Positions 1,657 to 17,701 of a stretch of DNA of 23,642 bases are shown here, piece by piece. The stretch covers positions 1-23,642 of the IMG/VR virus record IMGVR_UViG_3300021959_000396; one strand, 5' to 3'. The position numbers and the translations under genes were made by a program. The DNA is from a virus. How positions within the stretch are numbered: the first letter of the stretch is position 1; the number at the start of each line of letters is the position of its first letter. The notes below the pieces were generated by a model. That model saw only the letters and a program-made list of their open reading frames with translations. It was not told the origin of the DNA and made no database searches.

Positions 1657-1864
1657 AACTCTTTTCCTCTACATCTATATTTATTGGTTTTTTGTTTTTT
1701 GCCTTGGCTTTGACACCACTATCAGGTAGTTCAAAACCGTGCTGTTTTGCTAAATCATCTATATTGTGTTCTGAACCATCAACTAGAGTAACCATACGGT
1801 CTTCTCTGCCTGTCCATACACCATTCTTATATAGATTAAGCCATATATGTTTTTGTCTGTCCAT
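1580..1864 (-). CDS. Unknown small protein between tail tube and tail chaperone genes
   Basis: The product has 94 residues and begins MDRQKHIWLNLYKNGVWTGR. A folded-looking N-terminal half of about 55 residues contains VTLVDGSEHNIDDLAKQHGF. A hydrophilic tail follows, rich in Asp, Glu, Gly and Arg. The ATG at 1864 is preceded by AAGGAG on the minus strand. It comes just after a terminator hairpin that follows the tail tube gene, so it is probably expressed less than the tube protein. The disordered C-terminus coincides with the stretch overprinted by the 59-residue gene. I do not recognise a family; from position it is probably a tail assembly accessory. Confidence 0.65.
   Translation of the reverse strand: MDRQKHIWLNLYKNGVWTGREDRMVTLVDGSEHNIDDLAKQHGFELPDSGVKAKAKNKKPINIDVEEKSYEDMAGSHDGRDSEVDDRRDGEGEE
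1678..1684 (-). promoter_or_regulatory. Possible internal T4-type late promoter (ATAAATA)
   Basis: The minus strand reads ATAAATA here, 21 bases before the ATG at 1656, and downstream of the terminator at 1876-1905. It lies inside the 94-residue coding region (codons CCA ATA AAT ATA), so it could be a coincidence of codon use. Confidence 0.35.
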
Positions 1865-1875
1865 CTTTTACTCCT

Positions 1876-1905
1876 TAAAAAATGCTCCCCATATGAGGAG
1901 CATTT
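1876..1905 (-). terminator. Intrinsic terminator after the tail tube gene
   Basis: On the minus strand AAATGCTCC and GGAGCATTT form a perfect 9-base stem with an 8-base loop, followed by a run of T residues. It lies between the tail tube gene and the 94-residue gene in the direction of transcription. It probably lowers expression of the tail assembly genes relative to the abundant tube protein. Confidence 0.75.
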
Positions 1906-1929
1906 ATTGGTTTTTATGAAAACAACTGC

Positions 1930-2409
1930 TTACGAAGTTGCGCCTTCACTTAAATCTCCATCAACTTCGATTGTGATTGGACTGACCCATATTGGGCTCG
2001 AAGGATTTACCGTAGGAGCAAGTCCTGTGATATATCCTGTTCCAAAAACATATTTCTTACCAGAACCTGCTGTTCCTTGGAAATATATTCTAAAGTCGAT
2101 TTTGGTTTTGTCGTTTGAAGTTCCAAATAATCCTTTGTTAATGATTGGACTTGCGTCTGTGCCATCACCAAAGAACTGAGTACTATCTAACACACAGTTT
2201 AAGCCGATACTGTTAGTTGCCACAGTTGTAATAACTGCTTCACTTTGCTCGTCTAAAGTCTGGTATCTGAAGGTGCCCTGATTATTTGTTATTGAAACGT
2301 CCTGAAGATTTAACAACGTCATAGTAGTAGCAGGAGTTCCTGCTGTTCCTAAGTCTGAAATCTCAACTGTTGCTTCCAGTGTGCTTTCATTTACATTTAT
2401 TATTGCCAT
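1930..2409 (-). CDS. Major tail tube protein
   Basis: The protein has 159 residues, beta-rich, Thr/Ser/Gly-rich and with almost no Lys-rich tracts. It begins MAIINVNESTLEATVEISDL and includes GTAGSGKKYVFGTGYITGLA and a C-terminal PITIEVDGDLSEG. Size, composition and position (after the connector genes, followed by a terminator and the G/GT chaperone) fit the tail tube subunit, which polymerises around the tape measure. The ATG at 2409 has an AGGAG site upstream. No sheath gene accompanies it, consistent with a non-contractile tail. Family assignment is from context and composition rather than a diagnostic motif. Confidence 0.75.
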   Translation of the reverse strand: MAIINVNESTLEATVEISDLGTAGTPATTMTLLNLQDVSITNNQGTFRYQTLDEQSEAVITTVATNSIGLNCVLDSTQFFGDGTDASPIINKGLFGTSNDKTKIDFRIYFQGTAGSGKKYVFGTGYITGLAPTVNPSSPIWVSPITIEVDGDLSEGATS

Positions 2410-2430
2410 CTCTGGGTCTCCTATTATCTA

Positions 2431-2826
2431 TTATATTTTTACAAACCTATACTCAAATGTATAAGTCAGTATATCGCTTTCTATTTCTGAAGTACTACTG
2501 CTTTCACTTATTGAAGTGTTAGCAATGGCACTTTTAGCACCTAAGATACTTGCGATGCGTGTATCTAAGTCTGCTGGGGGGTTTTTAGCATCAACACTCA
2601 GATAAGCATTTAACGTGCTTTCCGTTTGATATACGTCAGGTGTGTTATTAACAAACTGATATGCTTGAGTCTGTGATTGTTGCTCTTGATCCAAATACAA
2701 AGTTTTCATATTTTTGATATTGAGTTGATCACTGCCACTAGTATATGGAAGTTCTTGACTAACACTGACGTTGCCACTGGCTAAGTCTGTGCTAAGTCTT
2801 GTTAATAAGTCTGCTCTAATGCCCAT
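2431..2826 (-). CDS. Probable tail terminator or tail-completion protein
   Basis: The product has 131 residues, beginning MGIRADLLTRLSTDLA and ending TYTFEYRFVKI. The length, the N-terminal helix followed by a mixed segment, and the location between the head-tail connector and the tail tube gene suit a tail terminator or neck protein. The start overlaps the previous stop as TAATG at 2824-2828, so the two should be coupled. I see no diagnostic motif; the role is inferred from gene order. Confidence 0.55.
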   Translation of the reverse strand: MGIRADLLTRLSTDLASGNVSVSQELPYTSGSDQLNIKNMKTLYLDQEQQSQTQAYQFVNNTPDVYQTESTLNAYLSVDAKNPPADLDTRIASILGAKSAIANTSISESSSTSEIESDILTYTFEYRFVKI

Positions 2827-3386
2827 TACCTTACTCTTGTTGTGTTACGTTTGTTTCTAGTTCTGCGATTGGTTCTAAATGACACCATACGGTCTTCATT
2901 GTCGATACCATCGCCTTCTCTGTCATACCAGTCCCACATATCCGTTAGTTCTTCATACAAGTCTTGAAACTTGTTTTCGTAATATTGGATCTTTTGTACT
3001 TCTGGTGAAAGTTCATCACCAAAATCAGCAACTTTAGGTAGAACGTATTCTTTTAACACATAGTAAGCACACATATCAGTAAAATCTGCTTGTCTACTTA
3101 CTATTCTGTTTGGATTAAAAGCAGGGATATTATTGAAATCAACAATACCCTCGCCTGTGTATCCTAAATACTGTCTCCATTTAGCACTTGCTCTTATCTT
3201 TTGATTGATTCGATTGGTGCTTTTGATTGATAAGTCGTCTATATACTCATCAAGAGTTGCTGGAGTATCTGGGGCATCTGCATAACTTACTTCATTACTT
3301 TCAAAAACTCTTTGGTCTTTGTCTCTAACGTCACTGGCGTCACAATAACTTGTTACGTTACCACTACCATCTGTTATGAATGCCAT
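2826..3386 (-). CDS. Head-tail connector (adaptor) protein
   Basis: The protein has 186 residues. The N-terminus MAFITDGSGNVTSYCDASDV resembles the opening of phage adaptor proteins, in which an incoming DNA segment of the head is sealed beneath the portal. A helical middle (LDEYIDDLSIKSTNRINQKI and a KIQYYENKFQDLYEELTDMW-like helix) and a very basic C-terminus (RTNRRTRNKRNTTRVR) follow. The ATG at 3386 has GGGAG upstream. It lies between capsid and tail-completion genes, which is the usual position. The adaptor call is by architecture and order. Confidence 0.6.
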   Translation of the reverse strand: MAFITDGSGNVTSYCDASDVRDKDQRVFESNEVSYADAPDTPATLDEYIDDLSIKSTNRINQKIRASAKWRQYLGYTGEGIVDFNNIPAFNPNRIVSRQADFTDMCAYYVLKEYVLPKVADFGDELSPEVQKIQYYENKFQDLYEELTDMWDWYDREGDGIDNEDRMVSFRTNRRTRNKRNTTRVR

Positions 3387-3398
3387 AATATAACTCCC

Positions 3399-4361
3399 TT
3401 ACGCCGCTATGTTTTTAACGATATTGTTAGATCTTAGGAAACGGATTCCTGATGCTTGACCCACTAATGAATCGATTAACACTCTGTCACCCAATGCACT
3501 TAATGAACCTACTGTACCGCCGTTAGCAATATGTGTCAACTGGTCGATAAGTTGAAGTTCCACTGCCGCGGAAATAGCCGCATAGTAGAATCCACTTGCG
3601 TCTGTTGGTGCATTAACATCTCTTAGTTTAGCAACTGCTTCACCAAAGTTACCTAGGGTAGCCTTTTGTGCTGTTGCTCCAACTTGTGTGTTACCTGCGA
3701 CTGCTTTAATGTAGGATTTTTGGATTTGAGCAAAACCGTTTCTCAAAGTTGAAACCATTTCGATTCTATCAAATGATACATCCTCGAAGGATTTTAACTC
3801 GGCGGACCTTTTTACCGCATATCCCATCGCCTCTGGCGAAAATACTGGACAAATATCCTGGTTTCCTGTGATTGTGTTAACCAACTCAATGTTGTTACCA
3901 GTTGTACCATCTAAATCTGATGCGTTTGCTGGTGCTGTTTCTGTGTTGTTTAACATCACTCTGAAGCCTGCTTCGTCTGTGGATTGTGCTAACATTCTTG
4001 ATAGTCTAGTTACTACACTATTACGTACAGTTTCTACGCCACCATCCTCGAGTGCTTCCATATTTACGTATGAAAACGCTCCTCTTTTATTGACTGCTAA
4101 GTCAACGGCTACTGGTGCAAAGTCAGGGTTAGTACCAGGTGTTAAACTGATATCTGATCCTTCTGCTATTGAACTTTGGCCTAATCCCCACGCATTGGTG
4201 ACCGGGATTCTCATTTTGTTACCTACTGCGCCTTCTAGATTGTAACTGTTTACAATCAACGTTGGAGAAGGTAATAGCACAGAGTTATCATAATAAGGGA
4301 TAAGATCTGCGGATACTTCCTCGAAAAGCACATTAAATAAACTACTTGTTGTTACTGACAT
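3399..4361 (-). CDS. Major capsid protein
   Basis: The protein has 320 residues, beginning MSVTTSSLFNVLFEEVSADL. It carries features common in HK97-fold capsid subunits without an N-terminal scaffold domain: an early strand LLPSPTLIVNSYNLEGAVGN, a spine-helix region around VETVRNSVVTRLSRMLAQST, and a beta-rich C-terminal half ending FLRSNNIVKNIAA. It directly follows a separate scaffold-like gene, as expected. The ATG at 4361 has an AAGGAG site. The gene is less AT-rich than its neighbours in places (for example around 3780-3840), as is usual for highly expressed genes. The capsid role is inferred from order, size and fold features. Confidence 0.75.
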   Translation of the reverse strand: MSVTTSSLFNVLFEEVSADLIPYYDNSVLLPSPTLIVNSYNLEGAVGNKMRIPVTNAWGLGQSSIAEGSDISLTPGTNPDFAPVAVDLAVNKRGAFSYVNMEALEDGGVETVRNSVVTRLSRMLAQSTDEAGFRVMLNNTETAPANASDLDGTTGNNIELVNTITGNQDICPVFSPEAMGYAVKRSAELKSFEDVSFDRIEMVSTLRNGFAQIQKSYIKAVAGNTQVGATAQKATLGNFGEAVAKLRDVNAPTDASGFYYAAISAAVELQLIDQLTHIANGGTVGSLSALGDRVLIDSLVGQASGIRFLRSNNIVKNIAA

Positions 4362-4393: not shown

Positions 4394-5266
4394 TTACCTC
4401 AGTTGTCCTGAACGTAACTCTTCTATTTTTTTCATATGCTTAGTAATCATATCATCATTGATTTGACTCCTACTCAAATGTTTGTTGTGATCACGCAACT
4501 GAACATAAGCATTTCTGTATAAACTGTCTGACTTTATTCTATCTTCATTGATAGGTTGTGTCTTCTTGCTTACACTATCGCTTTTGTCTGCGTCAAACAC
4601 AGATGCACCTTTTTTGGCAAATGGTAAACCCAAGTTCTTGCCAATCATTTCAACTGCTGATTTATAATCAGGAGTTTCGCCGTCGGTAGTAAGGAAATCA
4701 TCGCCTACTCTAATAGCAAACGTTTCACCTTCCACTGCAAACATATTTCTGGCTTTCATTAAATCAATAACTGCCGCCTTTTGTTCACTTTCCCAACTGC
4801 TTGGCATTTCGTTTTGTAGTTTGCTTAAATGATTTGTCAAAACAAAATCTGTTTTAACTCTATCAAGTTCACTACGCAACTCCTCAACTGTTTGTTCACG
4901 TTTCTTAACTGCATCTCTCAAACTGTTTACGTCTAAACTATTTGGTGCTTCATCAATATTCGCGGTTTGTAGTTGATTAACAACTGTCTTTACCTGCTTT
5001 ATGTCGTCCACATTTAGTTCTTTTAATAAACTTTGTTCTGTATCTCTACGAGCATTTGCGGCTATTTTGTTAGTGTCATCACGTGTGAAAACTCTAACTC
5101 CGTCAACATACATTTTACCATCTCTGTGTTCCACTGCTGGAGCACTTGAGGTTGCTTCTGCTGTTTTTTCAGATTCTACTGGAGTTTTATCTCCAACATC
5201 ACTATCTGTATGTAGTGGTTGCGTGTTAACACCTGCAACTGGTGTATCTGTATCCATCTCTGGCAT
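4394..5266 (-). CDS. Capsid scaffold-like protein
   Basis: The protein has 290 residues and is highly charged. A disordered acidic N-terminus (MPEMDTDTPVAGVNT) is followed by a short folded segment (HRDGKMYVDGVRVFTRDD). A long coiled coil covers roughly residues 70-165, with VKKREQTVEELRSELDRVK. The C-terminus is helical and basic. This is the usual make-up of phage scaffolding proteins, which guide capsid assembly and then leave or are degraded. It lies between portal and capsid genes. The ATG at 5266 has AAGGAG upstream. No protease signature is evident in it. Confidence 0.7.
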   Translation of the reverse strand: MPEMDTDTPVAGVNTQPLHTDSDVGDKTPVESEKTAEATSSAPAVEHRDGKMYVDGVRVFTRDDTNKIAANARRDTEQSLLKELNVDDIKQVKTVVNQLQTANIDEAPNSLDVNSLRDAVKKREQTVEELRSELDRVKTDFVLTNHLSKLQNEMPSSWESEQKAAVIDLMKARNMFAVEGETFAIRVGDDFLTTDGETPDYKSAVEMIGKNLGLPFAKKGASVFDADKSDSVSKKTQPINEDRIKSDSLYRNAYVQLRDHNKHLSRSQINDDMITKHMKKIEELRSGQLR

Positions 5267-5311: not shown

Positions 5312-6997
5312 TTAAACGCCATTGTCGGTTGATGTTGATGACATCAACTGTTCAAGTCGTTTGCGTATCTTGTCACGCATTTCTTCTTCAAATCCAACGT
5401 CTTCATTAACGTCATTATTTTGGCCAACTGCCTGTTCATACTCTAAATGAGTAGCAAACGGCATATAAGTAACTACTCCGTCTTCTCTGGTGTGAGAATG
5501 GAAGCCGTCACCGCCTAAACTTTGTGCTACACTCACTGCTTCTGCTTCTGTGGCATAGTCTTTTATTTGTGGTAAAGCAAACTGAGTCTTATAACTGTTG
5601 TATGCGGATAATAAACTGTTTATCTCGCCTATTTCGTGCTCTAATGCTTTCTTACTGTATTGTCTATTGTAACTTATACTGAAATCTTGTGGTATTTGTT
5701 GGTTAGTCCAGTCAAACCACAACTTGAACAGTTTCATTTCTGCGTTTTCTAAGTTTTGTGCTTTACGTCTTACGAATGCTTCTAACTTGCTGTCATACTG
5801 TTCTAACTGTTCACCTGAACGTGATGCTTTGATAAGGTCATCACTTCTAATCATTGCGATTTCAGCCATTTTGGTAATCTTTTGTTCTACAAGTTCTCTG
5901 ATTTCTGTGATTGCTTGTAGTGGTGGTGCCACAAAGTCGTAAACATAAGCAGGTGCTTCATTACCTATACCTGCTGGTACTCTCACAACACTTCCTGGTT
6001 CAGCACCAATGGCGCCATCATTTAGGTTGTCTGTGGTTTCGTCTACTACTAATGTGCCGTGTGCACCATAACTTATGACACTATATATCTCTGCCATATC
6101 GCCGTATATACTTCTCTGTATTTGTGCTAAGTCGAAACTGGGTGTTGCTCCAACACCTGAATATATTTTCATTCCTTGGTAAACTGGCACAACTGGGATA
6201 ACACCAAGTTCGTTTTCTTCAACTACTCGGTAATAGTCCTCATACTTTTCTAGGTTGGGACTGTCAACATCAGGCACGTAATCATCTTCTTCTGATGTCC
6301 ATACTGTTTCTATAGTGTCCGGAGTTATCATCCTATACACAGTTTGCTCGTCGTCCTCGTGAAGTTTGATTACGATTTTCTTCAACACGAGTTCGCCTCT
6401 GCTGTTATACCCATAGTGCCAGTTTGTAACATCTAATGGGGTATGTATGTTCCATTTAGGAACATCTGAATCTAAAGGTTTGATACAACTTATCCAAACT
6501 ACTCCAAAGATAAAACTTTTTAAGTCTACCTCTGCCATAAAGTTGTTTAAGTCTGTTTCTGATCCATCTACATCGTGTACGAAATCTTCCATTTCTGGTG
6601 TTTCTGGTAATACACGTTGTGGTGGGTTTTTGAATAGTATGCTGTTGTACTCTGAACTTATCAATCTCAAATAGTTCAAGTATGGTGTGTTTTTCAGTTT
6701 CTCTGAATAAAAACTGCCGTCATCAACTTGGTCCAATCCACGTTTTGCTTGGTAACTACTGCTAACATTCTCAATCTTTGCTTTGTACTTCTTGATAAAA
6801 CTGCCATCTGCGGCTGTTTCATATGTGTTAACGGTTTCTGCGGGAGTGTTCATATCAACAGCATAGGCTTTTAGATACCTACCGTCTCTGTATTCTACGC
6901 CACCATAATATGCATTAATGCAGTGACGCCAATCGTCTTCGTAACGATCGTATAAGTTATGAACACCTGTGATAAAATCTATGTAAGAATCACTCAA
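5312..6997 (-). CDS. Portal protein
   Basis: The product has about 561 residues; the portal forms the dodecameric DNA channel at one capsid vertex. Recognisable stretches are SEYNSILFKNPPQRVLPE, VVWISCIKPLDSDVPKWN, ENELGVIPVVPVYQG, QRSIYGDMAEIYSVISYGAH, and the helix with EQLEQYDSKLEAFVRRKAQN. These resemble portal proteins of the DUF4055-like group. I place the start at the TTG at 6997 because a GGAG lies 7 bases upstream and fits a transcript from the ATAAATA motif at 7035-7041. A TTG at 7030 extends the frame by 11 residues but has no ribosome site and lies at the expected transcription start. It heads the structural unit running to the tape measure. Confidence 0.8.
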   Translation of the reverse strand: MSDSYIDFITGVHNLYDRYEDDWRHCINAYYGGVEYRDGRYLKAYAVDMNTPAETVNTYETAADGSFIKKYKAKIENVSSSYQAKRGLDQVDDGSFYSEKLKNTPYLNYLRLISSEYNSILFKNPPQRVLPETPEMEDFVHDVDGSETDLNNFMAEVDLKSFIFGVVWISCIKPLDSDVPKWNIHTPLDVTNWHYGYNSRGELVLKKIVIKLHEDDEQTVYRMITPDTIETVWTSEEDDYVPDVDSPNLEKYEDYYRVVEENELGVIPVVPVYQGMKIYSGVGATPSFDLAQIQRSIYGDMAEIYSVISYGAHGTLVVDETTDNLNDGAIGAEPGSVVRVPAGIGNEAPAYVYDFVAPPLQAITEIRELVEQKITKMAEIAMIRSDDLIKASRSGEQLEQYDSKLEAFVRRKAQNLENAEMKLFKLWFDWTNQQIPQDFSISYNRQYSKKALEHEIGEINSLLSAYNSYKTQFALPQIKDYATEAEAVSVAQSLGGDGFHSHTREDGVVTYMPFATHLEYEQAVGQNNDVNEDVGFEEEMRDKIRKRLEQLMSSTSTDNGV

Positions 6998-7034: not shown

Positions 7035-7041
7035 TATTTAT
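7035..7041 (-). promoter_or_regulatory. T4-type late promoter for the portal-to-tail unit
   Basis: The minus strand reads AAAAGGCATAAATA, with ATAAATA 37 bases before the TTG start at 6997. A GGAG ribosome site lies between. The same AAAAGGCATAAATA string precedes the small terminase gene. No -35 element is obvious. A plus-strand sigma70 promoter diverges from it at 7083. Confidence 0.65.
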
Positions 7042-7082: not shown

Positions 7083-7111
7083 TTGACGAGCGTGAGATTT
7101 TTCAGTATAAT
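7083..7111 (+). promoter_or_regulatory. Sigma70-type promoter 1
   Basis: TTGACG at 7083-7088, a 17-base spacer and TATAAT at 7106-7111. The 41 bases from the -10 box through the start codon (7106-7146) are identical to 8036-8076 and include the ribosome site AAAAGGAG. Confidence 0.85.
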
Positions 7112-7142
7112 AGTTGTATATTTTAAATAAAAGGAGTAAAAT

Positions 7143-7823
7143 ATGACAAATGGTGAAATAAGAAAATACTGCAAAGACAACAATGTGTCTAAAGCAGAAG
7201 CATACGCATACTTTAATCAAGTGATGCGAAATAACTTGGCAAACAAGCCAGTTAAAAGTAAAATAGTCAAAAAACTTATGAATGCTCATAAGGCTAGCAA
7301 AGAAATCAAAAAGCCTGTGGGTTTATACATTGGCTACAAACCAAAAAATCACAAAGAAGGTAGCACTTATAGTACTTGGCGTTTGGTTGCTGATTACGAT
7401 AACATTATGGAATCTAAAAGAATGTTAGACAGAGATGGGTTTACCAGAGAGGATTTGAGTAGTGCTTTATGGGAATATTTTAGAAATGACAAGTATCAAG
7501 TAGATATGAATGGTAACTGTATTGAAGATACTCACGCATTAGCAACTGCTGTAATGGCTTATCTTACAACTTACAATGGTTTTGTTGGTGCTAATACTGG
7601 TTATTTAATGACTGTGAAAGAATGGGATCCTACAAATCCTAACGGTGCTAAACACGGTGGTATTAGATTAAAAGCCAATGGTTTTGAAAAACACACATCA
7701 TTTGAAGATTGGAACACTTGGACAGCCGAGAACCAAAACGATAAAGATGAAATCAGATCATTATTTGATGGTTGTTTTGCTATGGAAGATGCTATGGCAG
7801 ACGGCACAATAATAGGTATATAG
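7143..7823 (+). CDS. Unknown protein, first gene of plus-strand cassette
   Basis: The product has 226 residues. The basic helical N-terminus (about residues 1-60, with MTNGEIRKYCKDNNVSKAEA and IVKKLMNAHKASKEIKKP) could bind nucleic acid. The remainder is mixed and includes STWRLVADYDNIMESKRMLD, an HALATAVMAYLTTYNG helix and an acidic C-terminus. No catalytic motif or family is recognised. It is driven by a consensus sigma70 promoter and an AAAAGGAG ribosome site, so it is probably expressed early. The next small gene follows after nine bases. Confidence 0.75.
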   Translation: MTNGEIRKYCKDNNVSKAEAYAYFNQVMRNNLANKPVKSKIVKKLMNAHKASKEIKKPVGLYIGYKPKNHKEGSTYSTWRLVADYDNIMESKRMLDRDGFTREDLSSALWEYFRNDKYQVDMNGNCIEDTHALATAVMAYLTTYNGFVGANTGYLMTVKEWDPTNPNGAKHGGIRLKANGFEKHTSFEDWNTWTAENQNDKDEIRSLFDGCFAMEDAMADGTIIGI

Positions 7824-7832
7824 GAGGACGAT

Positions 7833-8012: not shown

Positions 8013-8013
8013 G

Positions 8014-8041
8014 TTGACAACGCATCTATATTTGTTATAAT
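8014..8041 (+). promoter_or_regulatory. Sigma70-type promoter 2
   Basis: TTGACA at 8014-8019, a 16-base spacer and TATAAT at 8036-8041. It is followed by a leader identical to that of promoter 1 up to the ATG at 8073. Confidence 0.85.
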
Positions 8042-8072
8042 AGTTGTATATTTTAAATAAAAGGAGTAAAAT

Positions 8073-9568: not shown

Positions 9569-9597
9569 TTGACACAGGCGGCTAATAACGTTATAAT
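9569..9597 (+). promoter_or_regulatory. Sigma70-type promoter 3
   Basis: TTGACA at 9569-9574, a 17-base spacer and TATAAT at 9592-9597, followed by AGTTGTATATTT and AAAAGGAG before the ATG at 9627. It begins 5 bases after the metallopeptidase stop. Confidence 0.85.
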
Positions 9598-10120: not shown

Positions 10121-10341
10121 TGGCTAAGTTAAAAGGCAAAGCAAGAGCAAAGGCTCGTAAGACAAAACGTATGGCATACAAACAATCTAAAAACTGTATG
10201 TTATTGCTACCAAACGGTGGATATAAAATGATTTCTGAAAAAGAAGCAGATGCATTGAAAGATGGATTAGGATTGCAAAGATTATCTGAAAGATTGAAGA
10301 TGTTTACACAAAGGTTGACTTCATCCTCAGAGATGCTATAA
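10120..10341 (+). CDS. Basic small protein of unknown function
   Basis: The product has 73 residues. The N-terminus MAKLKGKARAKARKTKRMAY is very basic and the rest is helical (EKEADALKDGLGLQRLSERL). I start it at the ATG at 10120, which has AGGAGGTGGCG upstream; an in-frame ATG at 10087 lies inside the previous gene and lacks a ribosome site. It may bind nucleic acid. The last codons and stop (ATG CTA TAA) are built into the -10 box of promoter 4, showing how tightly the modules are packed. Confidence 0.65.
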   Translation: MAKLKGKARAKARKTKRMAYKQSKNCMLLLPNGGYKMISEKEADALKDGLGLQRLSERLKMFTQRLTSSSEML

Positions 10342-10342
10342 T
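10315..10342 (+). promoter_or_regulatory. Sigma70-type promoter 4
   Basis: TTGACT at 10315-10320, a 16-base spacer and TATAAT at 10337-10342, lying inside the end of the preceding gene. AGTTTTATATT and AAAAGGAG follow before the ATG at 10372. Confidence 0.85.
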
Positions 10343-10992: not shown

Positions 10993-10999
10993 ATAAATA
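10993..10999 (+). promoter_or_regulatory. T4-type late promoter on the plus strand
   Basis: AAAGTGATAAATACT, with ATAAATA 27 bases before the ATG at 11027 and AAAAGGAG between. The same 15-base string occurs on the minus strand before the 14210 gene. It suggests that the three genes 11027-12592 are expressed late. Confidence 0.6.
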
Positions 11000-11026: not shown

Positions 11027-11707
11027 ATGAAAATACACACAAAATACTTTGGCCCAGGGCCTAGACAAAACGTAACTAAAGATTTAGATTTACCTGTGCC
11101 TACTGTTATAAAAGATCAAAAGGTGCAAGACTATGACGGTAATCGTTGGATAACCAAATCCATAAAACTTATACCATTTAACACTCAAAAAGCACCTAAT
11201 GGTGTTGACAACTGGGTTTATTTTGATTTAGACACAGAAGAATGGATATATGGTTGGTTAACCAGAATAGTGTTAGAATATCAACACAAAATAAACACTT
11301 TCCCCACAGCACTGGGCAAGTTAGACCAAACAATCAATAAAAAAGGCACATACGATAGATTAAACAGTTTTAACAGTATACTAACTACTTGTAGTGGATT
11401 GGTATTGAATCGCACCAGAGCAACTGAAATAAAGTTCACTACCAAACAGTTAGCAGACATAGAAAAAGTGTTTGACATAGCAACTTATGTGTTTAGAGAT
11501 ATTCGCGTTAAGAATCACAGCACAGGAGAGTTTGAATCCAGTGTGCTCACAACCAAAGATATTGGCTATCACAGAACTACCAAAGTGCCCAATGAAGATA
11601 TAATGAGAATATATTTTATGAAGAATCCAGGTCTCACTATAGGCGCAGATGGTCACACATACGATGACACACCACTGGATCTTTTTATAGGAGGCAAAAA
11701 TGGCTAA
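11027..11707 (+). CDS. Unknown protein
   Basis: The product has 226 residues: MKIHTKYFGPGPRQNVTKDL, then a DNWVYFDLDTEEWIYGWLTR aromatic patch, a helical middle (ADIEKVFDIATYVFRDIRVK) and a C-terminal DIMRIYFMKNPGL. The ATG at 11027 is chosen because AAAAGGAG lies 5 bases upstream; a longer frame from a TTG at 11003 has no such site. It heads a three-gene unit and overlaps the helix-turn-helix gene by 8 bases. No family recognised. Confidence 0.7.
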   Translation: MKIHTKYFGPGPRQNVTKDLDLPVPTVIKDQKVQDYDGNRWITKSIKLIPFNTQKAPNGVDNWVYFDLDTEEWIYGWLTRIVLEYQHKINTFPTALGKLDQTINKKGTYDRLNSFNSILTTCSGLVLNRTRATEIKFTTKQLADIEKVFDIATYVFRDIRVKNHSTGEFESSVLTTKDIGYHRTTKVPNEDIMRIYFMKNPGLTIGADGHTYDDTPLDLFIGGKNG

Positions 11708-12095
11708 CGGTAGCAAAATAACATTACCAGACGGTACCAAAATAACTCAGTTTGAACAAAAATGGGGCATTGATGCAGTACAGTTGGCAAAACTGGAAGG
11801 AGTAGGCCCAGCCACTATTCATATGAGAGTATTGAACTATGGCACACCCTTTCAAAGACGAGCAAAAACCACTATGTGGGAAGACGTTTACGGTAAAACA
11901 CTGGGTGAAATAGCCATTGAAGAAGGCTTACACCCTGTGACCTGTGCTAACAAACACTACACACTGGGCAGTTGTTATGCCAAAACAGATCAACGTTTTG
12001 CACGTGGTAAACTTACCAAAGAAGATTGGACCAAAAATCCTAGATATTTGAGAATGATCAAACCCACACACTTCACATTGGAGGACATACTGTGA
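11700..12095 (+). CDS. Two-repeat helix-turn-helix protein
   Basis: The product has 131 residues. Two copies of a unit of about 36 residues are seen. One is WGIDAVQLAKLEGVGPATI plus NYGTPF (about 22-51). The other is YGKTLGEIAIEEGLHPVTC plus TLGSCYA (about 64-94). Each looks like a helix-turn-helix ending in a G-x-x-[YF] element. The same unit occurs three times in the protein at 14368-15039, so the two genes are paralogues. It probably binds DNA, perhaps phage control regions. The ATG at 11700 is preceded by an AGGAGG-like site and overlaps the upstream gene by 8 bases. Confidence 0.7.
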   Translation: MANGSKITLPDGTKITQFEQKWGIDAVQLAKLEGVGPATIHMRVLNYGTPFQRRAKTTMWEDVYGKTLGEIAIEEGLHPVTCANKHYTLGSCYAKTDQRFARGKLTKEDWTKNPRYLRMIKPTHFTLEDIL

Positions 12096-12592
12096 ACCCA
12101 CATTTGGAATATTTGGACCATTTGGATCAACACCAGTACAGCACATTTAATATGGCACAGAAAATGACTGTGATTAATGATTTCGCAGAACTTTGCGGTT
12201 TACAGCCATTTAGCCGTAATGGTATTGTGTGGATATACAATGATCCTGCTAAGTCACCTAATCCTAGACAACCTTACGTAACTGTATACTTCAATGCGGC
12301 TAGTGTGCTAGACAACACAGGAAACATAGTGTGTAATAGTTATGGAATAGATACTCTAGATGCTATTGAGTTTGAAGCAGGATTCAAAAACCCTACCAGT
12401 GAATGGTACAGCAAAAGTGAACACAGAACTTTGGGTTTGCCAAAACTAAAGCCTATTGAAATACATCAAGAAAGCATTAATGTGGATTATACAGATTTAG
12501 CCAGTGTTAAGAGATTGTTCACTATGTGGAGCAAAGTTATCAACTATGATTGGGTTGGTAAACTGATTGATCCTGGTATTAAAGGCATCTAA
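12092..12592 (+). CDS. Unknown protein, last gene of first plus-strand cassette
   Basis: The product has 166 residues: MNPHLEYLDHLDQHQYSTFN, an NDFAELCGLQPFSRNGIVWI segment, and a C-terminal SVKRLFTMWSKVINYDWVGK. I start it at the GTG at 12092, which overlaps the upstream TGA (GTGA) and has GGAGG about 8 bases before. Its TAA overlaps the stop of the convergent minus-strand gene by three bases. No catalytic motif or family recognised. Confidence 0.7.
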   Translation: MNPHLEYLDHLDQHQYSTFNMAQKMTVINDFAELCGLQPFSRNGIVWIYNDPAKSPNPRQPYVTVYFNAASVLDNTGNIVCNSYGIDTLDAIEFEAGFKNPTSEWYSKSEHRTLGLPKLKPIEIHQESINVDYTDLASVKRLFTMWSKVINYDWVGKLIDPGIKGI

Positions 12593-12801
12593 TCCTTCTT
12601 TTTACCAAATATTCTATCCCAACCTTCAGCATATAAATCATCATCAGTACCACGTCGTGCTGAGCCTTTTCCTCCGTGAGTTTGAGTTGGCTTATACTTA
12701 AAGCCTTCTGATTTATCACGCATTTCTCTTAATGCTGGTGTGTTGTTGATTATCTTTTCGTTGCGGATCCATTCTTTTGATCCTTTTGGTGGTGTTGTCA
12801 T
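12589..12801 (-). CDS. Small conserved-type phage protein, unknown function
   Basis: The product has 70 residues, polar and basic. It includes THGGKGSARRGTDDDLYAEG and a WDRIFGKKKD end. This GGKGS plus W/YDxIFGKK ending is familiar from small proteins of marine phages, usually without assigned function. The start overlaps the large terminase stop (ATGA), so it is translated with the terminase. It is the last gene before the oppositely oriented cassette. Confidence 0.65.
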   Translation of the reverse strand: MTTPPKGSKEWIRNEKIINNTPALREMRDKSEGFKYKPTQTHGGKGSARRGTDDDLYAEGWDRIFGKKKD

Positions 12802-14027
12802 AAGTTTCTCCCTGTGCTACGCCTTGTGGGCATATACTTTTCTGTTCTAACGTTACGTATGGGCCAAGTTCTTTCTATATAGTAACCCAATGCATCTGTG
12901 ATATGGTCATAGCCTGAAGTTTTATCTGGCTGTCGGGTGCCTTCTTTGTATGTCATTTTGATTAAGCCTTCTCTAGTCTGTTTACACTTGGGATCAATGA
13001 ATAACAAGTGTTCCTTCACGGTGTTACGCAATCTGGCATTAACCGCCGCAATACGTTCTGCTACAGGAGGGTTAGTGCTACCTGTTCGCACGTGAAAGCC
13101 GTGTTGTTGTAGTATTAAGTGGTCTGTGATACCTGTTGAAGCAGTAGTACGTCTTACACCTGATGCGTCTGGATACACAATAACTCCACGTTTAGGATAT
13201 CGTCTTTTTATCTCTTCGCACATCTCATTGGTGTTTGAACTGTATATGGTTATTTCATCTATTACCCAAGCACGTTCGCCATCTTGTATGCAGATAACAG
13301 CACTCATTGGATCTATGTTAAAGTCCATTCCTATGTGCAATGGTGCAGTAGGTGGTATTTGTGGCATACTGGCAATATTGGCATCTGAGAAAGCATAGTA
13401 GCATACACCACTATATGAAACAAACTGCGATAAGTATTCCTGTTCGAATGTGCGTTCGTCTAAGTCTTTTTTGGCTTGTGCTATCTCTTCAGGCGGCACA
13501 TTACCACCTTGTTCTGTGGTGAACTGCCAACTGCTCCATTCTGATTCTGAGCCTTGATTGTACAAATCATAAAACCAGTTTCTGCCTTTAGGTGAGCCAA
13601 TGAATAGTGCGTGTCCGCCAGTATCTGATAATGTGGGCCGAAGTATTTGATAGAATGTGTCTGCGTGTATGTCAGCACACTCATCCATTACTATAAAGTT
13701 ATATTTGGCACCACGTAATGCTTCTCTGTTGTCTGCACTACGAATATATATGATACTGCCATTCTTTAACTGTATGTTGAGATCACTTTCATTTACTTTG
13801 TCTATCCATCTCACAGCATACAGTCTATTTTTCAGTTCGTCCCATATAACTTGCTTTGCTTGTCGATAAGTTGGTGCCACATACAGGCAACGTTGATTGG
13901 GTAATCTGGCAAACTTGGCAAGTTCATTGATACTCAAAAAACTTTTGCCAAAACGTCTACCCGCGGCTACTACTCTAAATCGCGCGGTGCTGTCACTCAC
14001 AGTTTGTTGCGGTGCAGTCAGTTTCAC
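12798..14027 (-). CDS. Terminase large subunit
   Basis: This is the 409-residue ATP-driven DNA packaging motor and nuclease. The ATPase has Walker A GRRFGKS (23-29), Walker B IVMDE (112-116) and the coupling motif IGSPKG (about 143-148). The nuclease domain has MDFNID with Asp235, VIDEI with Asp257 and Glu258, VYPDAS with Asp287, and the terminal GYDHITDALGYY (Asp374 and Asp378). All key acidic residues are present. The GTG at 14027 follows the upstream stop by three bases with no clear ribosome site, so it is likely coupled to the membrane-protein gene. Length is typical of compact phage terminases. Confidence 0.93.
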   Translation of the reverse strand: MKLTAPQQTVSDSTARFRVVAAGRRFGKSFLSINELAKFARLPNQRCLYVAPTYRQAKQVIWDELKNRLYAVRWIDKVNESDLNIQLKNGSIIYIRSADNREALRGAKYNFIVMDECADIHADTFYQILRPTLSDTGGHALFIGSPKGRNWFYDLYNQGSESEWSSWQFTTEQGGNVPPEEIAQAKKDLDERTFEQEYLSQFVSYSGVCYYAFSDANIASMPQIPPTAPLHIGMDFNIDPMSAVICIQDGERAWVIDEITIYSSNTNEMCEEIKRRYPKRGVIVYPDASGVRRTTASTGITDHLILQQHGFHVRTGSTNPPVAERIAAVNARLRNTVKEHLLFIDPKCKQTREGLIKMTYKEGTRQPDKTSGYDHITDALGYYIERTWPIRNVRTEKYMPTRRSTGRNL

Positions 14028-14239: not shown

Positions 14240-14246
14240 TATTTAT
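14240..14246 (-). promoter_or_regulatory. T4-type late promoter for the large terminase unit
   Basis: The minus strand reads AAAGTGATAAATACT, 29 bases before the ATG at 14210, with AAGGAG between. It diverges from the sigma70-type promoter at 14289. Confidence 0.65.
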
Positions 14247-14288: not shown

Positions 14289-14317
14289 TTGACCATTTCG
14301 GGGAATACGGGTATAAT
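14289..14317 (+). promoter_or_regulatory. Sigma70-type promoter 5
   Basis: TTGACC at 14289-14294, a 17-base spacer and TATAAT at 14312-14317. The leader differs from those of promoters 1-4 and carries GAGGA before the ATG at 14368. Confidence 0.75.
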
Positions 14318-14367
14318 ATATATATGTTTAGCAATAATGCTAGACTGTTTATAAAGTGAGGAAATAT

Positions 14368-15039
14368 ATGAATAAACTAAAAAAAGCAGATACTATAGCC
14401 TGCCAGGCTAGAAGATTGTGCAAACAACAATATGGTAAAACTCTAGAAGTAATAGCCAGAGAAGAAGGTGTCAAACCCGCGGCTATTATTAATAGATTAA
14501 GAAGAACTGGCAATGCTTATGCGAGTACTCCTAAAAATGTTGCTATAACAGGTGTCGTACAAAGACGTATACGCAAAGAGGAGTTATATAATAAGTTTGG
14601 TTTCACTGCGCCACAACTAGCAGAACAGTTAGGCGTAGATGAGACTACTATATATCAGAGATACAAAACATATGGCACACCATATATACAAAAAGGGACC
14701 GCCGGTAGAAAAATGGCAAGTGTTCCAACAACACCAAGTGTTCCAAAAACACCAGCACCAAAAGCCAATCCACTAAAGGCAGATTTCTATACAAAAAACA
14801 ATATCAGTCTCAAAGATATGTTTGGAGAAACTGTAGAAGAGATTGCACTTAGAGAAGGTCTAAGTGATAATGCTATACGTAAAAGATATCATAAAACTGG
14901 ATCGCCTTATGCCCATAATCAGATAGGCATCACGGATCACAGAATAAACACTCTATTTGCTCAAGCAGAAAGACTGTTAGATATTATAGATGCTCTCAAC
15001 GAAATCAAAGTTGTACAACAATCTAAGTTAAGCAAATGA
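14368..15039 (+). CDS. Three-repeat helix-turn-helix protein
   Basis: The product has 223 residues. There are three copies of a helix-turn-helix-like unit. They are YGKTLEVIAREEGVKPAAI with RTGNAYA (about 22-52), FGFTAPQLAEQLGVDETTI with TYGTPYI (about 77-107), and FGETVEEIALREGLSDNAI with KTGSPYA (about 152-182). A Pro/Thr/Lys linker at 117-135 separates repeats two and three, and the C-terminus is a helix (ERLLDIIDALNEIK). The protein is basic and should bind DNA, possibly tandem sites. The ATG at 14368 follows GAGGA by 6 bases; an upstream in-frame GTG at 14356 has no site. It overlaps the next gene as ATGA. Confidence 0.75.
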   Translation: MNKLKKADTIACQARRLCKQQYGKTLEVIAREEGVKPAAIINRLRRTGNAYASTPKNVAITGVVQRRIRKEELYNKFGFTAPQLAEQLGVDETTIYQRYKTYGTPYIQKGTAGRKMASVPTTPSVPKTPAPKANPLKADFYTKNNISLKDMFGETVEEIALREGLSDNAIRKRYHKTGSPYAHNQIGITDHRINTLFAQAERLLDIIDALNEIKVVQQSKLSK

Positions 15040-15374
15040 TTACGCCTAGAATCAGTAGTCATTGTAGAGAACAATGTGTTCAACGTAATATCAGTCTGCT
15101 AGAACTTTGTGCTGTATACACATACGGCACAAAGAGCAGAAGCATAAGACTAGATATTAATCGTTTAAACGGTAAAAGACGTTACAGTAGTGGTAAACAC
15201 AGTTTAGCCAGAAGTAACAAGTGTAATAGTGTTTATATCAGTCTGCGTAGAGCAGATTGGTTAGAGATACGCAATATGCCGGGAATACGCAAAAGCATCA
15301 AGCATTTGATATTGGTATTAGACGTAGATAGAGATATCGTTATGACTATTTACAATAATCCCAGAGTGTTTTAA
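15036..15374 (+). CDS. DUF4258-like protein
   Basis: The product has 112 residues and is basic. The N-terminal ISSHCREQCVQRNISLLELC resembles the H-x-R-E-R-x-x-x-R-x-I-s start of DUF4258 proteins, and the C-terminal VLDVDRDIVMTIYNN resembles their closing strand. That family is related to RelE/BrnT-like folds, some of which are RNase toxins, but activity cannot be read here. It is coupled by ATGA to the DNA-binding protein before it, an arrangement reminiscent of toxin-antitoxin pairs although the order could equally be a simple regulator pair. The stop overlaps the convergent 15371 gene. Confidence 0.6.
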   Translation: MITPRISSHCREQCVQRNISLLELCAVYTYGTKSRSIRLDINRLNGKRRYSSGKHSLARSNKCNSVYISLRRADWLEIRNMPGIRKSIKHLILVLDVDRDIVMTIYNNPRVF

Positions 15375-15679
15375 TCTTCTATGTTACTGTTTAGCCAAGT
15401 GCTTACGCCAGGATATCCCCACAATGCCATTGCCAGTATAACACCGCCATCCTTCATTGATTTGCCCTGTTTTCTGGCTCTGTCATAGTTTGGCTTATGT
15501 CTAGCAATAAAACTTTTCATACGTTTCAGTGTGTCATTACTCAAGTTATCACCGTTTGCCAACTGTTTTGCTCTGGCTATGCCTACTGGTGTTCCTGCAC
15601 GTTTTGATGGTGGTAGTTCACTTCTAACTTCTAGTGCCTTTCGGGCAAGTTTGCGAACATTTACGGGTGGTACTGGCAT
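15371..15679 (-). CDS. Small phage protein with prohead-associated type domain
   Basis: The product has 102 residues. It shows the sequence pattern ARKALEVRSE, GTPVGIARAKQLANG, LSNDTLKRMKSFIARH and a closing GGVILAMALWGYPGVSTW. That pattern occurs in many phages as a separate protein or fused to prohead-protease or XkdF-like proteins; its biochemical role is not established. The start overlaps the small terminase stop (TAATG), placing it in the packaging operon. Identification is by remembered motif pattern. Confidence 0.6.
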   Translation of the reverse strand: MPVPPVNVRKLARKALEVRSELPPSKRAGTPVGIARAKQLANGDNLSNDTLKRMKSFIARHKPNYDRARKQGKSMKDGGVILAMALWGYPGVSTWLNSNIED

Positions 15680-16074
15680 TATTCTGTTTCTCCACTGATA
15701 TCATTCCACGGTAGTATATCTGAATCACTTTCTTTGGTTGGTGAGTCTGCCATTCCTAACCATTGTTTACTGAGCCAAATCATCATTACTCTGTCGCCAT
15801 TGAGTGCAGTTTCCAACATCTTGCTACGCAACTTGCGTTTAGTATTTTGACGTGCTTTTACATATAAATCGCGAAAGTTGTTGCGAAGTGTGGTTTCTGG
15901 CACACCGTAGTATTCTGAAAAGTCTTTCCAAGTACTGAACAAGCAAGCCATTTGATAGAACTCTGGCTCAGGAATAACTGTTTTGTTTTCTCCTCTGCCT
16001 ACTACTCTACCTGTGACGGTTTTTTCGCCGTATTTGATGTTTTTTACTTGATATGGTGCTACTTCATTTGCCAT
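15679..16074 (-). CDS. Probable terminase small subunit
   Basis: The product has 131 residues. A helix-turn-helix-like segment (TWKDFSEYYGVPETTLRNNF, about 48-68) is followed by a basic helix (YVKARQNTKRKLRSKMLETA) and WLSKQWLGMADSP (about 100-112), a phrase frequent in small terminases. It would recognise phage DNA and hand it to the large subunit. The ATG at 16074 has AGGAG upstream and an ATAAATA promoter 36 bases before it. The large terminase gene lies downstream on the same strand but is separated from it by an inserted plus-strand cassette. Confidence 0.7.
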   Translation of the reverse strand: MANEVAPYQVKNIKYGEKTVTGRVVGRGENKTVIPEPEFYQMACLFSTWKDFSEYYGVPETTLRNNFRDLYVKARQNTKRKLRSKMLETALNGDRVMMIWLSKQWLGMADSPTKESDSDILPWNDISGETE

Positions 16075-16110: not shown

Positions 16111-16117
16111 TATTTAT
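16111..16117 (-). promoter_or_regulatory. T4-type late promoter for the small terminase unit
   Basis: The minus strand reads AAAAGGCATAAATA, 36 bases before the ATG at 16074. The TAA stop of the upstream 88-residue gene is part of the motif. Confidence 0.65.
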
Positions 16118-16380
16118 GCCTTTTTGGTAAGTCTTACCCATTTTTCCGCAGTTTTTCGCCACAATATGCGTTTAGTGGGTGCAGGTACTGGTGTATCGTC
16201 TATGATAACATAACGTTTTTGTATAGTTGCTGTATTATCCAATAACCAATCCAGTGTGCGTTGTTGGGTTTTATTTGGGTTATGCATTACACTTCTTACC
16301 CAGTTCATATGACTGTGATGCACTTGTTTTTTGTCTAACAGTGGAGGAGTGGGTTCATAATACTGTTTTGATTCCTTCAT
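16114..16380 (-). CDS. Unknown small basic protein
   Basis: The product has 88 residues: MKESKQYYEPTPPLLDKKQV, a helical NWVRSVMHNPNKTQQRTLDW segment, YVIIDDTPVPAPTKR, and a basic WRKTAEKWVRLTKKA end. The ATG at 16380 has no ribosome site and lies 6 bases after an ATAAATA motif, so either the message is nearly leaderless or the true start is elsewhere. Its stop merges with the small terminase promoter. No family recognised. Confidence 0.55.
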   Translation of the reverse strand: MKESKQYYEPTPPLLDKKQVHHSHMNWVRSVMHNPNKTQQRTLDWLLDNTATIQKRYVIIDDTPVPAPTKRILWRKTAEKWVRLTKKA

Positions 16381-16386
16381 CTACAC

Positions 16387-16393
16387 TATTTAT
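16387..16393 (-). promoter_or_regulatory. ATAAATA motif, doubtful late promoter
   Basis: The motif is 6 bases before the ATG at 16380, which leaves no room for a leader, unlike the other copies. It could be a leaderless start or a chance occurrence in AT-rich sequence. Confidence 0.3.
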
Positions 16394-16828: not shown

Positions 16829-16969
16829 TTATGCTTTACTGTTTTGCTTGATAACAACATAACCAAGTCTTTCTGCGGCTTCAACGATATTGTCCAAAGT
16901 CCTGCCAGGGTCTCTATATCTGGTGACCAACCTTATGTGTTGTTTGTTAAACTCTGCTAGGATGTACAT
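16829..16969 (-). CDS. Small ORF of 46 residues, probable
   Basis: The frame starts MYILAEFNKQHIRLVTRYRD and continues with TLDNIVEAAERLGYVVIKQN, a plausible helix-strand unit with codon use like the neighbours. The ATG at 16969 overlaps the end of the 83-residue gene by 23 bases in another frame. Only a short AAGG lies just before it, so translation may depend on the upstream gene. A perfect 8-base hairpin begins 3 bases after its stop. No family recognised. Confidence 0.5.
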   Translation of the reverse strand: MYILAEFNKQHIRLVTRYRDPGRTLDNIVEAAERLGYVVIKQNSKA

Positions 16970-17198
16970 CGCCTTTTGGTGTGCCCAATCCACCAGAGTA
17001 TGTTCTTTTGCCTTGATATTTTTTATTTTGCCTTAATGCCTGTTCTGCCTTGCGTGATTTTGATTTACCAGCATCTTCGTCCCACATAATCCAACCCATT
17101 ATTTTATCAAGTTGGTATGGAGCAAGTGTGCTTAAATCTGATGTGCCATAATATTTTTGTGCCTTTGCTATTGCCTGTTTTTCTATTTTACTTTGCAT
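16947..17198 (-). CDS. Unknown small basic protein
   Basis: The product has 83 residues. The helical N-terminus (MQSKIEKQAIAKAQKYYGTS), a middle with YQLDKIMGWIMWDEDAGKSK, and a Lys/Arg/Gly-rich probably disordered C-terminus (RQNKKYQGKRTYSGGLGTPK) suggest a nucleic-acid or virion-associated protein. The ATG at 17198 has AAGGA upstream and an ATAAATA motif 32 bases before it. It stands between two hairpin-rich stretches. No family recognised. Confidence 0.65.
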   Translation of the reverse strand: MQSKIEKQAIAKAQKYYGTSDLSTLAPYQLDKIMGWIMWDEDAGKSKSRKAEQALRQNKKYQGKRTYSGGLGTPKGDVHPSRV

Positions 17199-17230
17199 AG
17201 TTTTACTATCCTTATCATTTATTGCAAAGT

Positions 17231-17237
17231 TATTTAT
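17231..17237 (-). promoter_or_regulatory. T4-type late promoter for the 17198 gene
   Basis: The minus strand reads TTTGAGATAAATA, 32 bases before the ATG. Upstream is TTTTACCCCCAAAA, which resembles the ACCCAAAA string before the motif at 7035. Confidence 0.65.
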
Positions 17238-17351
17238 CTCAAAGATTGAGTTTTGGGGGTAAAAAAGGAAATGTAGACAACATTAAATATTAATGATATT
17301 AGCAACAAACATTAAGGACATCATAGATATAAAAATATAGTACAATGCAAG

Positions 17352-17690
17352 TTTCCCGCAGAAGGGGAAAGATATTTTAAAGTTGCCTACACACTTATTT
17401 ATCACTACTTGTGCTGTATGGGAAATATACTGAGTGAACCTGTACTCAGCAAGAAACATTGTGATAATGTTTCTTACTTTGTATACTATTGATAACCGGA
17501 TAAGTATCAATATATTTTAGAAGAAATGTTCAATCAATGGCATTAGACTGAACATCAAAATGGCACATTAATCAATCTAGTGGATTTATCGATGTGCTGT
17601 AACAGGTATGTTTGAATAACAGAGGCTACTCTGTTCAATCGGGGATATTACTATATTGTCAGATAAAGTGTATATGATATACCCGTTACA
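17352..17690 (-). ncRNA. Candidate late-expressed structured noncoding RNA
   Basis: No credible ORF fills this stretch. It starts just after an ATAAATA motif (17695-17701, minus) and holds eight inverted repeats: CGGG-ATAT/ATAT-CCCG (17640-17685, around a GTATAT/ATATAC palindrome at 17670-17682); AACAGAG/CTCTGTT (17618-17635, 4-base loop); GCACAT/ATGTGC (17563-17597); ATGTTCA/TGAACAT (17526-17555); TATTGATA/TATCAATA (17487-17512); AAGAAACATT/AATGTTTCTT (17451-17475, perfect 10-base stem); CTGAGT/ACTCAG (17430-17449); TTTCCC/GGGAAA (17352-17370). The ACCTGT in the 17430 hairpin loop complements ACAGGT at 17602-17607, a possible pseudoknot. The 3' end is unknown; a second ATAAATA lies inside. 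No match to a known RNA class is claimed. Confidence 0.55.
17396..17402 (-). promoter_or_regulatory. ATAAATA motif without a downstream gene
   Basis: The minus strand reads AGTGATAAATAAG. No ORF follows before the next motif at 17231; the TTTCCC/GGGAAA hairpin does. It could start a short RNA or feed the 17198 gene with a long leader. Confidence 0.45.
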
Positions 17691-17694
17691 ATAT

Positions 17695-17701
17695 TATTTA
17701 T
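17695..17701 (-). promoter_or_regulatory. T4-type late promoter of the candidate noncoding RNA
   Basis: The minus strand reads TTTTGAGATAAATA. TTTGAGATAAATA is identical to the copy at 17231, with a similar ACCCAAAAA upstream. Transcription would enter the hairpin-rich stretch that has no gene. Confidence 0.6.

Follow-up and report, generated by a model that had tools for sequence, protein, structure and literature searches.

T4-Type Late Promoters Ahead of Non-T4 Virion Genes in a Family of Small Aquatic Phages That May Borrow the Late Transcription of a Larger Phage

ATAAATA boxes occur throughout a family of small, uncultured, water-borne phages and, on well-supported sequence grounds, act as T4-type late promoters of virion genes that are themselves not of the T4 kind. 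The presence of this late-gene switch without a recognisable reader or DNA-copying gene suggests that the family probably depends on a larger phage in the same cell, with the helper link drawn from genome comparison. We judge the chances to be about even that these are satellite-like phages borrowing the late transcription of a co-infecting large phage. The window, that is, the whole stretch of DNA analyzed, is IMG/VR record IMGVR_UViG_3300021959_000396 at its full length (positions 1 to 23,642; 23,642 nucleotides).

Results

The window holds nine copies of ATAAATA, all but the plus-strand copy at 10993 lying on the minus strand. Their raw number is that of chance (9 versus a shuffle mean of 8.48, with 48 of 100 shuffles reaching 9), and enrichment over the window as a whole was rejected on this basis; their placement is not that of chance. 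Seven copies lie wholly inside the 1,944 intergenic bases defined by a hand-curated gene list, a count that dinucleotide shuffling of this sequence reached in 3 of 1000 trials, the control that the earlier note had proposed. Eight of the nine had been called intergenic in that note; the total stands, but the copy at 16111 shares bases with the stop codon of the ORF upstream, and the copy at 1678 sits inside an ORF. The 8-base T4 form TATAAATA occurs 0 times in the window, with 2.3 expected.

As had been claimed, boxes precede the portal, small terminase, membrane protein/large terminase, and 17198 units and one plus-strand unit. On the minus strand, they are found 37 nt upstream of the TTG start of the portal unit (7035..7041), 29 nt upstream of the ATG of a short membrane-type ORF and the large terminase (14240..14246), 36 nt upstream of the small terminase ATG (16111..16117), and 32 nt upstream of the ATG of ORF 16947-17198 (17231..17237); the plus-strand box (10993..10999) lies 27 nt upstream of the ATG of ORF 11027-11707. 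The internal minus-strand copy (1678..1684, within ORF 1580-1864) is located 21 nt upstream of ORF 1477-1656, where the tail genes begin, and its homologues read ATAAATA in 13 of 18 cases and GTAAATA in 5 of 18. These six distances agree with an earlier count of seven boxes 21–37 bases from a start codon; the seventh box (16387..16393, minus strand), belonging to ORF 16114-16380, is instead exactly 6 nt from its ATG, and a near-leaderless transcript is therefore expected there. The two remaining minus-strand copies (17396..17402 and 17695..17701) have no start of an ORF of at least 40 aa within ∼120 nt.

Across the family, an ATAAATA box is present within 150 bases of the portal start in 71 of 76 relatives, compared with 0.034 expected in each. 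In the intergenic sequence of 29 family contigs, late-strand boxes are enriched approximately fourfold (104 versus 26.6 expected), and boxes on the opposite strand are not enriched (17 versus 16.2 expected). The boxes are conserved although the flanking sequence has diverged. Box-to-ATG distances peak at 6 nt, with 11 boxes (6 of which belong to one homologous gene) compared with 0–2 for control 7-mers, and no boxes are seen at 8–13 nt; in the T4-like phage HTVC008M, used for comparison, 7 of 18 boxes are found at 5 nt. The 6-nt cluster appears to fit the T4 late start site, and the base at the T4 +1 place is a purine in 68% of cases; an RNA start ∼6 nt below the box is predicted indirectly from these two features. 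A TTGACA-like −35 element (at most two mismatches, suitable spacing) accompanies 20 of 111 family sites versus 23 in shuffles, bearing out the earlier remark that these boxes have no −35 box, and at position −13 of the same 111 sites G is found in 51% and T in 14%. The portal placement, late-strand bias, 6-nt spacing, and lack of a −35 element together uphold the proposal of the earlier note that T4-type late promoters stand ahead of non-T4 virion genes. A contig from a sister group (G051) has the same gene style, only two ATAAATA copies, and no end redundancy.

Genes on the opposite strand are preceded by near-perfect host-type sigma-70 promoters (25 of 58 loci versus 5 of 290 shuffles). In the window, all on the plus strand, these are TTGACG-N17-TATAAT at 7083..7111 (ORF 7143-7823), TTGACA-N16-TATAAT at 8014..8041 (ORF 8073-8276), TTGACA-N17-TATAAT at 9569..9597 (ORF 9627-9821), TTGACT-N16-TATAAT at 10315..10342 (ORF 10372-10764), and TTGACC-N17-TATAAT at 14289..14317 (ORF 14356-15039). 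The putative early genes occupy 7143-12592 and 14356-15374. With such early promoters, the family is able to begin expression alone, which counts against a need for a helper.

The virion genes of the window are all on the minus strand. We identified the portal protein (5312..6997; phrog_145, E 6e-39), the large terminase (12798..14027; PF03237 above its cut-off, 44% to Pelagibacter phages), and a tape-measure protein truncated by the record end (2..640; phrog_3336, E 4e-51). The likely scaffold (4394..5266) has a weak match to phrog_2303 (E 0.012). The likely major capsid protein (3399..4361), kept in 30 of 31 contigs, is so called from its position after the portal and scaffold, a name that stays provisional because neither the phage collection nor PHROG gave a match. 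For the likely small terminase (15679..16074), the window copy itself has no family match; its cluster occurs in 22 of 31 contigs, and 3 of 91 scanned proteins match phrog_309 (small terminase).

All seven apparently complete family genomes (26.8–34.3 kb) encode a portal, a terminase, a tape measure, and other conserved clusters of virion type, and the family, judged by these matches, has its own head, tail, and packaging genes. Just two non-virion clusters are common to all seven: that of the small terminase, and a mixed HTH/HNH one whose G010 members are HNH endonucleases. Profile searches with 91 non-virion proteins of these genomes (91 of 110 listed ORFs) recognized no replication, integration, sigma, or lysozyme gene, and gave no integrase match; because many ORFs have no assigned function, the absence of replication genes holds only as far as the profiles reach. 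One scan of bacterial genome contigs with the portal alignment, as a route to a prophage or host, returned no relative; on these two results the family would not be classed as prophage or temperate. A 214-aa family gene has no match in phages.

The earlier note held that the phage encodes, or exploits, a late sigma system comparable to that of T4. At the sensitivity used, a gp55-type late sigma was rejected for the family (0 of 40 contigs, 7 of them apparently complete, with three kinds of profile, our own profile being used in 31), and the gp55 profile found its target in 5 of 5 T4-type control genomes. A gp45-type clamp was likewise found in 0 of 8 family contigs, with the controls found, and by gp55 and clamp together the family would not be classed with the T4-like phages (Straboviridae, Kyanoviridae). 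The lack of a late sigma homologue in the genome, set beforehand as a test, tells against "encodes" only; "exploits" fits best, and the same collection contains large phages that share the extended promoter and have polymerase relatives with gp55.

The family might instead express, from its host-type early promoters, a late sigma or activator of its own, too diverged to recognize, that reads ATAAATA and makes a helper unnecessary. This is the strongest of the alternatives, if still an unlikely one. Early genes with good host-type promoters do exist, most of them with no assigned function, and a protein with repeated HTH units, represented in the window at 14356..15039 (plus strand; D5-like regulator phrog_323) behind a host-type promoter, is widespread, one copy matching Sigma70_r4_2 (PF08281) at E 9e-10. 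However, the model of the HTH protein consists of two small HTH units and has no sigma-2-like domain, and a fold search with the model, with a sigma in mind, gave no informative match. No match was found with the Sigma70_r2 profile, on which T4 gp55 itself scores weakly, and the near-empty set of non-virion clusters shared by all seven apparently complete genomes also speaks against a common sigma.

The reading in which a larger phage supplies the late sigma draws on an extended motif, GATAAATAN4TGTTATAACA, common to the family and to fragments of T4-like large phages. The two groups also have genes in common, and the large phages share the G preference at −13 (49% versus 51% in the family). 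Contigs of class G040 bear the exact extended motif, and a 291-aa gp55 is encoded on large-phage contig G055. Polymerase relatives of the motif-bearing large-phage fragments carry gp55 in 5 of 7 contigs; gp55 was found on 0 of 15 motif-bearing non-family contigs searched, the exact extended motif in 0 of 7 large gp55-bearing relatives searched, and a gp45-type clamp in 0 of 5 large relatives searched with that profile. Other candidate links were set aside: a small shared gene with no or weak matches, cluster 22 (phrog_2859), whose matches are scattered over many kinds of phage, and a glycosyltransferase whose best match, in the T4-like phage C48C1, is too weak (30%) to name a helper.

A second alternative, in our estimation a rather improbable one, is that a host sigma factor or regulator reads the box in an ordinary host-dependent phage. 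The host-type promoters do show early use of the host enzyme, but ATAAATA differs from a sigma-70 −10 hexamer and lacks a −35 partner, and the same box serves large phages that have a late sigma. The box is kept across family contigs of 36–49% GC and in the freshwater phage DSL-LC06, making a single host factor unlikely, whereas the Pelagibacter phage HTVC111P, alike in size and terminase, has no such placement. It is very improbable that the boxes arise by chance or from coding sequence in AT-rich DNA, or that they work at the RNA level and not as promoters: the chance-level count in the window and the internal copy in coding sequence speak for this, but the placement, strand bias, 8–13 nt spacing gap, and conservation despite diverged flanks speak against it.

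Discussion

In the mechanism we propose, ATAAATA would stand alone as a −10-type box spanning −12 to −6, unaccompanied by a −35 element, and RNA would begin ∼6 nt downstream. Opposite-strand (early) genes would be driven by host-type sigma-70 promoters and virion genes by ATAAATA; the phages would make their own head and tail, then await co-infection by a large phage equipped with a gp55-type sigma, and that phage would provide late transcription and, probably, replication and lysis too. It is the combination of no recognized late sigma and no recognized replication gene that makes the 27–34 kb genomes look satellite-like. We infer the start site, early/late timing, helper identity, and helper dependence alike from sequence comparison. 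A bolder version, which we put forward tentatively and with less confidence than the satellite reading itself, is that these are widespread aquatic "virophages" of bacteria: complete 27–34 kb tailed phages that would replicate only alongside large gp55-bearing phages, using the helper's late promoter and extended initial sequence to time their virion genes and host promoters for their early genes.

If this is true, satellites with their own virions would be a common aquatic phage lifestyle, not a Streptomyces rarity, with the late sigma of the helper as the hook. The pairing of T4-type late promoters with no late sigma would then be a signature of helper-dependent phages in metagenomes, and the family a natural test of the extent to which T4-type late transcription is open to capture in trans. 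Should the family have its own sigma instead, it would be a new minimal reader of the T4-type promoter, and either answer is informative. The open-access literature yielded no report combining the late-promoter, satellite, and T4/jumbo themes; subscription papers lie mostly outside it, and absence in print is unproven.

In T4, the late promoters (gp55, gp33, gp45), as described in passages of PMC2988020, are likewise a lone −10-type A/T box with no −35, AT-rich just below, and with a start about one helical turn down. They differ in that a T precedes the box there, as in the 8-base form absent from the window, and mostly a G here, although some sites in T4 and in its relatives have a different base at −13 (PMC2988020, same passages); and T4 encodes gp55 and a clamp gene, none being detected in the family. 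DSL-LC06 (proposed "Nanhuiviridae"; sections of PMC10611076) is a distant relative with a circular 29.8 kb genome, a related portal (25%) and terminase (44%), ATAAATA divided 7 to 1 by strand, and a GenBank annotation without a replication gene; the text of that paper has 0 mentions of satellite or helper, and neither promoters nor helpers are discussed in the cited sections. The Pelagibacter phages HTVC111P and HTVC112P are alike in size, terminase (∼45%), and portal (∼25%) and differ in having Pelagibacter given as host; HTVC111P also differs in its annotated DnaD-domain protein and lysozyme and has no placed ATAAATA boxes.

The Mulch and Flayer satellite phages of Streptomyces, in the portions of PMC10690885 that describe them, also have their own encapsidation genes and no key replication genes, and MiniFlayer, like the family, has no integrase. 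They are smaller (14.8 and 17.4 kb versus 27–34 kb here), and their helper is known, whereas ours is proposed from sequence; the main text of that paper never mentions promoters. The virophages Sputnik and Mavirus, as presented in parts of PMC6723459, are again small viruses with their own capsid and with genes under the helper's late promoter; they differ in being eukaryotic viruses with unrelated proteins, whose helper link has been shown. By analogy, the present family may be a bacterial counterpart of these virophages, which use the late promoter of a giant virus.

Late Promoter Boxes in the Window and Related Phages

The window contains nine copies of the T4-type late promoter box ATAAATA, all of them where the earlier note had placed them. 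The total is no higher than in shuffled sequence (9 versus a shuffle mean of 8.48), and neither the full T4 late form TATAAATA anywhere in the window nor a −35 element at the boxes was found. Seven boxes fall within 1,944 hand-curated intergenic bases, a number reached in only 3 of 1,000 shuffles; the box positions are not random. Box-to-start distances are 21, 37, 27, 29, 36, 6, and 32 nt; for the remaining two boxes, no start codon is within reach. The earlier list, with seven boxes about 21–37 bases before a start codon, is correct except for copy 16387, which is actually 6 nt from its ATG.

The window, with genes for a tape-measure protein, portal, and terminase, is a complete IMG/VR record (23,642 bases) that is classed as linear and is therefore probably a fragment; no T4-like match was found for its portal or likely capsid protein. 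Two short ORFs directly upstream of the tape-measure gene (921–1142 and 1184–1480) could be a putative frameshifted tail chaperone pair, and an ORF on the presumed early (plus) strand at 8611–9564 has, by eye, an HEARH motif and a zinc metalloprotease-like look, with only weak PHROG matches, to families of unassigned function.

Portal searches yielded 33 loci in a first round and 80 in a second (45%–99% identity), from small uncultured aquatic phages referred to here as the family; 31 contigs, two of them from first-round loci, were read entirely or almost so after joining, with genes taken from our own simple ORF calls, and no relatives were found in the bacterial genomes scanned. ATAAATA lies at most 150 bases upstream of the portal start in 71 of the 76 loci having that start (expectation 0.034 per locus), the exceptions being L019 (cut off), L101 (GTAAATA instead), L113, L114, and L116, and the sequence flanking this box has diverged among family members. 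On the late strand, that of the virion genes (minus in the window), 29 contigs (two near-duplicates dropped) hold 104 intergenic boxes versus 26.6 expected (SD 5.6; maximum 42 in 100 shuffles), and on the other strand 17 versus 16.2 expected. The ORF-internal copy at 1678 recurs in its homologues as ATAAATA (13/18) or GTAAATA (5/18), one false member of the 19-member cluster having been set aside; because the box persists although only 42% of Ile codons are ATA and 55% of Asn codons AAT, the DNA here seems to be kept beyond the protein. In many family members (L087, L004, L076, and others), a palindrome like TGTTATAACA begins just below the portal box, approximately at the expected RNA start; it is present in large-phage fragments as well.

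Box Spacing and Two Promoter Classes

Among 192 distinct boxes in the 31 contigs (ORFs of at least 45 aa counted), 11 lie exactly 6 nt ahead of an ATG, 3 at 5 or 7 nt, none at 8–13 nt, and others from 14 nt up; nine control 7-mers occur 0–2 times each at 6 nt. Six of the 11 belong to one homologous gene, which retains the 6 nt in all eight versions. A 49–55 aa gene with the N terminus M(T/S)(P/A)(Y/F)EIRL is invariably found 6 nt below ATAAATA (L024, L026, L027, L031, L095, L103, L107, and L109). In the T4-like pelagiphage HTVC008M, 7 of 18 boxes stand 5 nt before the start. Judging from the spacing, RNA would start ∼6 nt below the box, in T4 fashion (late promoter geometry as given in PMC2988020), and near-leaderless genes would then yield the 6-nt peak. 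No −35 element accompanies the boxes across the family.

When no more than one mismatch is allowed, 25 of 58 loci show a sigma-70 promoter on the opposite strand within the 300 bases before the portal (versus 5 of 290 shuffles); on the portal strand, none of the 58 does. Five such promoters precede plus-strand genes in the window: four belong to a repeated cassette that also includes a leader and a ribosome site (7083–7146, 8014–8076, 9569–9630, and 10315–10375), and the fifth, at 14289, is not among the cassettes. With sigma-70 promoters on the opposite strand and boxes on the late strand, the two classes therefore split most genes by strand, the box at 10993 being an exception; the two gene classes would presumably be early and late, respectively.

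Possible Sources of a Late Sigma

The earlier note allowed that the phage encodes its own gp55-type (T4-type) late sigma, but none was detected in the family contigs. The gp55 profile phrog_234 has no match in 22 plus 18 contigs (5 of 5 control genomes detected), and phrog_12791, a closer family for the large-phage sigma, has none in 31 (both large-phage controls detected). Our own profile, built from eight gp55 proteins (leave-one-out E of 4e-33 or better), gives a best E of only 0.11, for a short frame in G015, across all six-frame ORFs of the 31 contigs and of DSL-LC06, a distant relative (proposed family "Nanhuiviridae"). One sigma-like lead, an HTH-repeat protein, was rejected: its model shows two small HTH units, and the fold search was uninformative.

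Genome completeness was judged from assembly overlaps. Six contigs have matching ends (G019, 1,363 bases; G010, 98; G023, 202; G024, 249; G025, 93; G027, 101), and G022 (L119–L121; 47,908 bases) carries two variants of a 27.3–27.7 kb unit, ∼1.75× head to tail, which points to a concatemer or to a circular map assembled as a chimera. From these seven apparently complete contigs, 91 of 110 listed non-virion ORFs of at least 70 aa were scanned. Pfam matches comprise sugar, methyl-transfer, HNH, and HTH families, a single DUF5824, and a single TnsD; PHROGs, among the matches listed (25 of 26 families), comprise endonucleases, glycosyl- and methyltransferases, small terminase, and unknowns; and neither these nor Pfam include an integrase, polymerase, primase, helicase, sigma, or lysozyme. 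Certain family members outside these seven carry AAA ATPases. The circular, 29.8 kb DSL-LC06 resembles the family, and its GenBank annotation shows no replication proteins, in disagreement with a general statement in its paper that all the genomes treated there have them (PMC10611076).

We consider it an even call, and the likeliest reading, that family late transcription relies on a helper phage's gp55-type sigma. Host core polymerase with such a sigma from another phage would read the late genes, and the supplying phage would provide replication and lysis too; sequence comparison is consistent with such late-promoter borrowing. The extended motif GATAAATAN4TGTTATAACA is found in 39 IMG/VR contigs: 18 from the family, 4 from a sister group (terminase 51%–54%), 9 that carry T4-like genes for a clamp loader or ribonucleotide reductase, 4 DNA-similar to those, and 4 unassigned. 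The contig G040, of which 100 of 101.6 kb was read, encodes a polymerase (27%, E = 3e-64) and a clamp loader (31%) that are both T4-like, and the base preceding the box is G in 49% for its group and 51% for the family. The G040 polymerase has relatives on contigs that reach 374 kb, and 5 of 7 searched carry gp55. Family and large phages also have in common a gene for a 355-aa protein (51% identical; DNA 66% over 728 bases) and a 120-residue portal stretch (46% identical). A long gp55-type sigma of ∼290 aa is found in large aquatic phages (G055, G058, and other relatives of L192:10526–13180). The sister-group contig G051 (L219, L220; 26,367 bases; terminase 51%, portal 24%, similar gene style) has the extended motif ahead of a fibre-like gene.

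Three results count against the helper link: the exact extended motif is absent from all seven large relatives searched, gp55 from all 15 motif-bearing fragments searched, and a gp45-type (sliding) clamp was not detected in five large relatives. A late sigma of the family's own, unrecognised by profiles that detected their controls, is the next candidate, a rather unlikely one. A host factor reading the box, set beside a motif held in common with contigs bearing T4-like genes, is more doubtful still. That the boxes are not promoters at all, as their chance-level total in the window might suggest, is highly improbable against their intergenic, late-strand excess.

Of known systems, the Mulch and Flayer satellites come closest (PMC10690885), together, in mode of action, with virophages that bear a giant virus's late promoter (PMC6723459).
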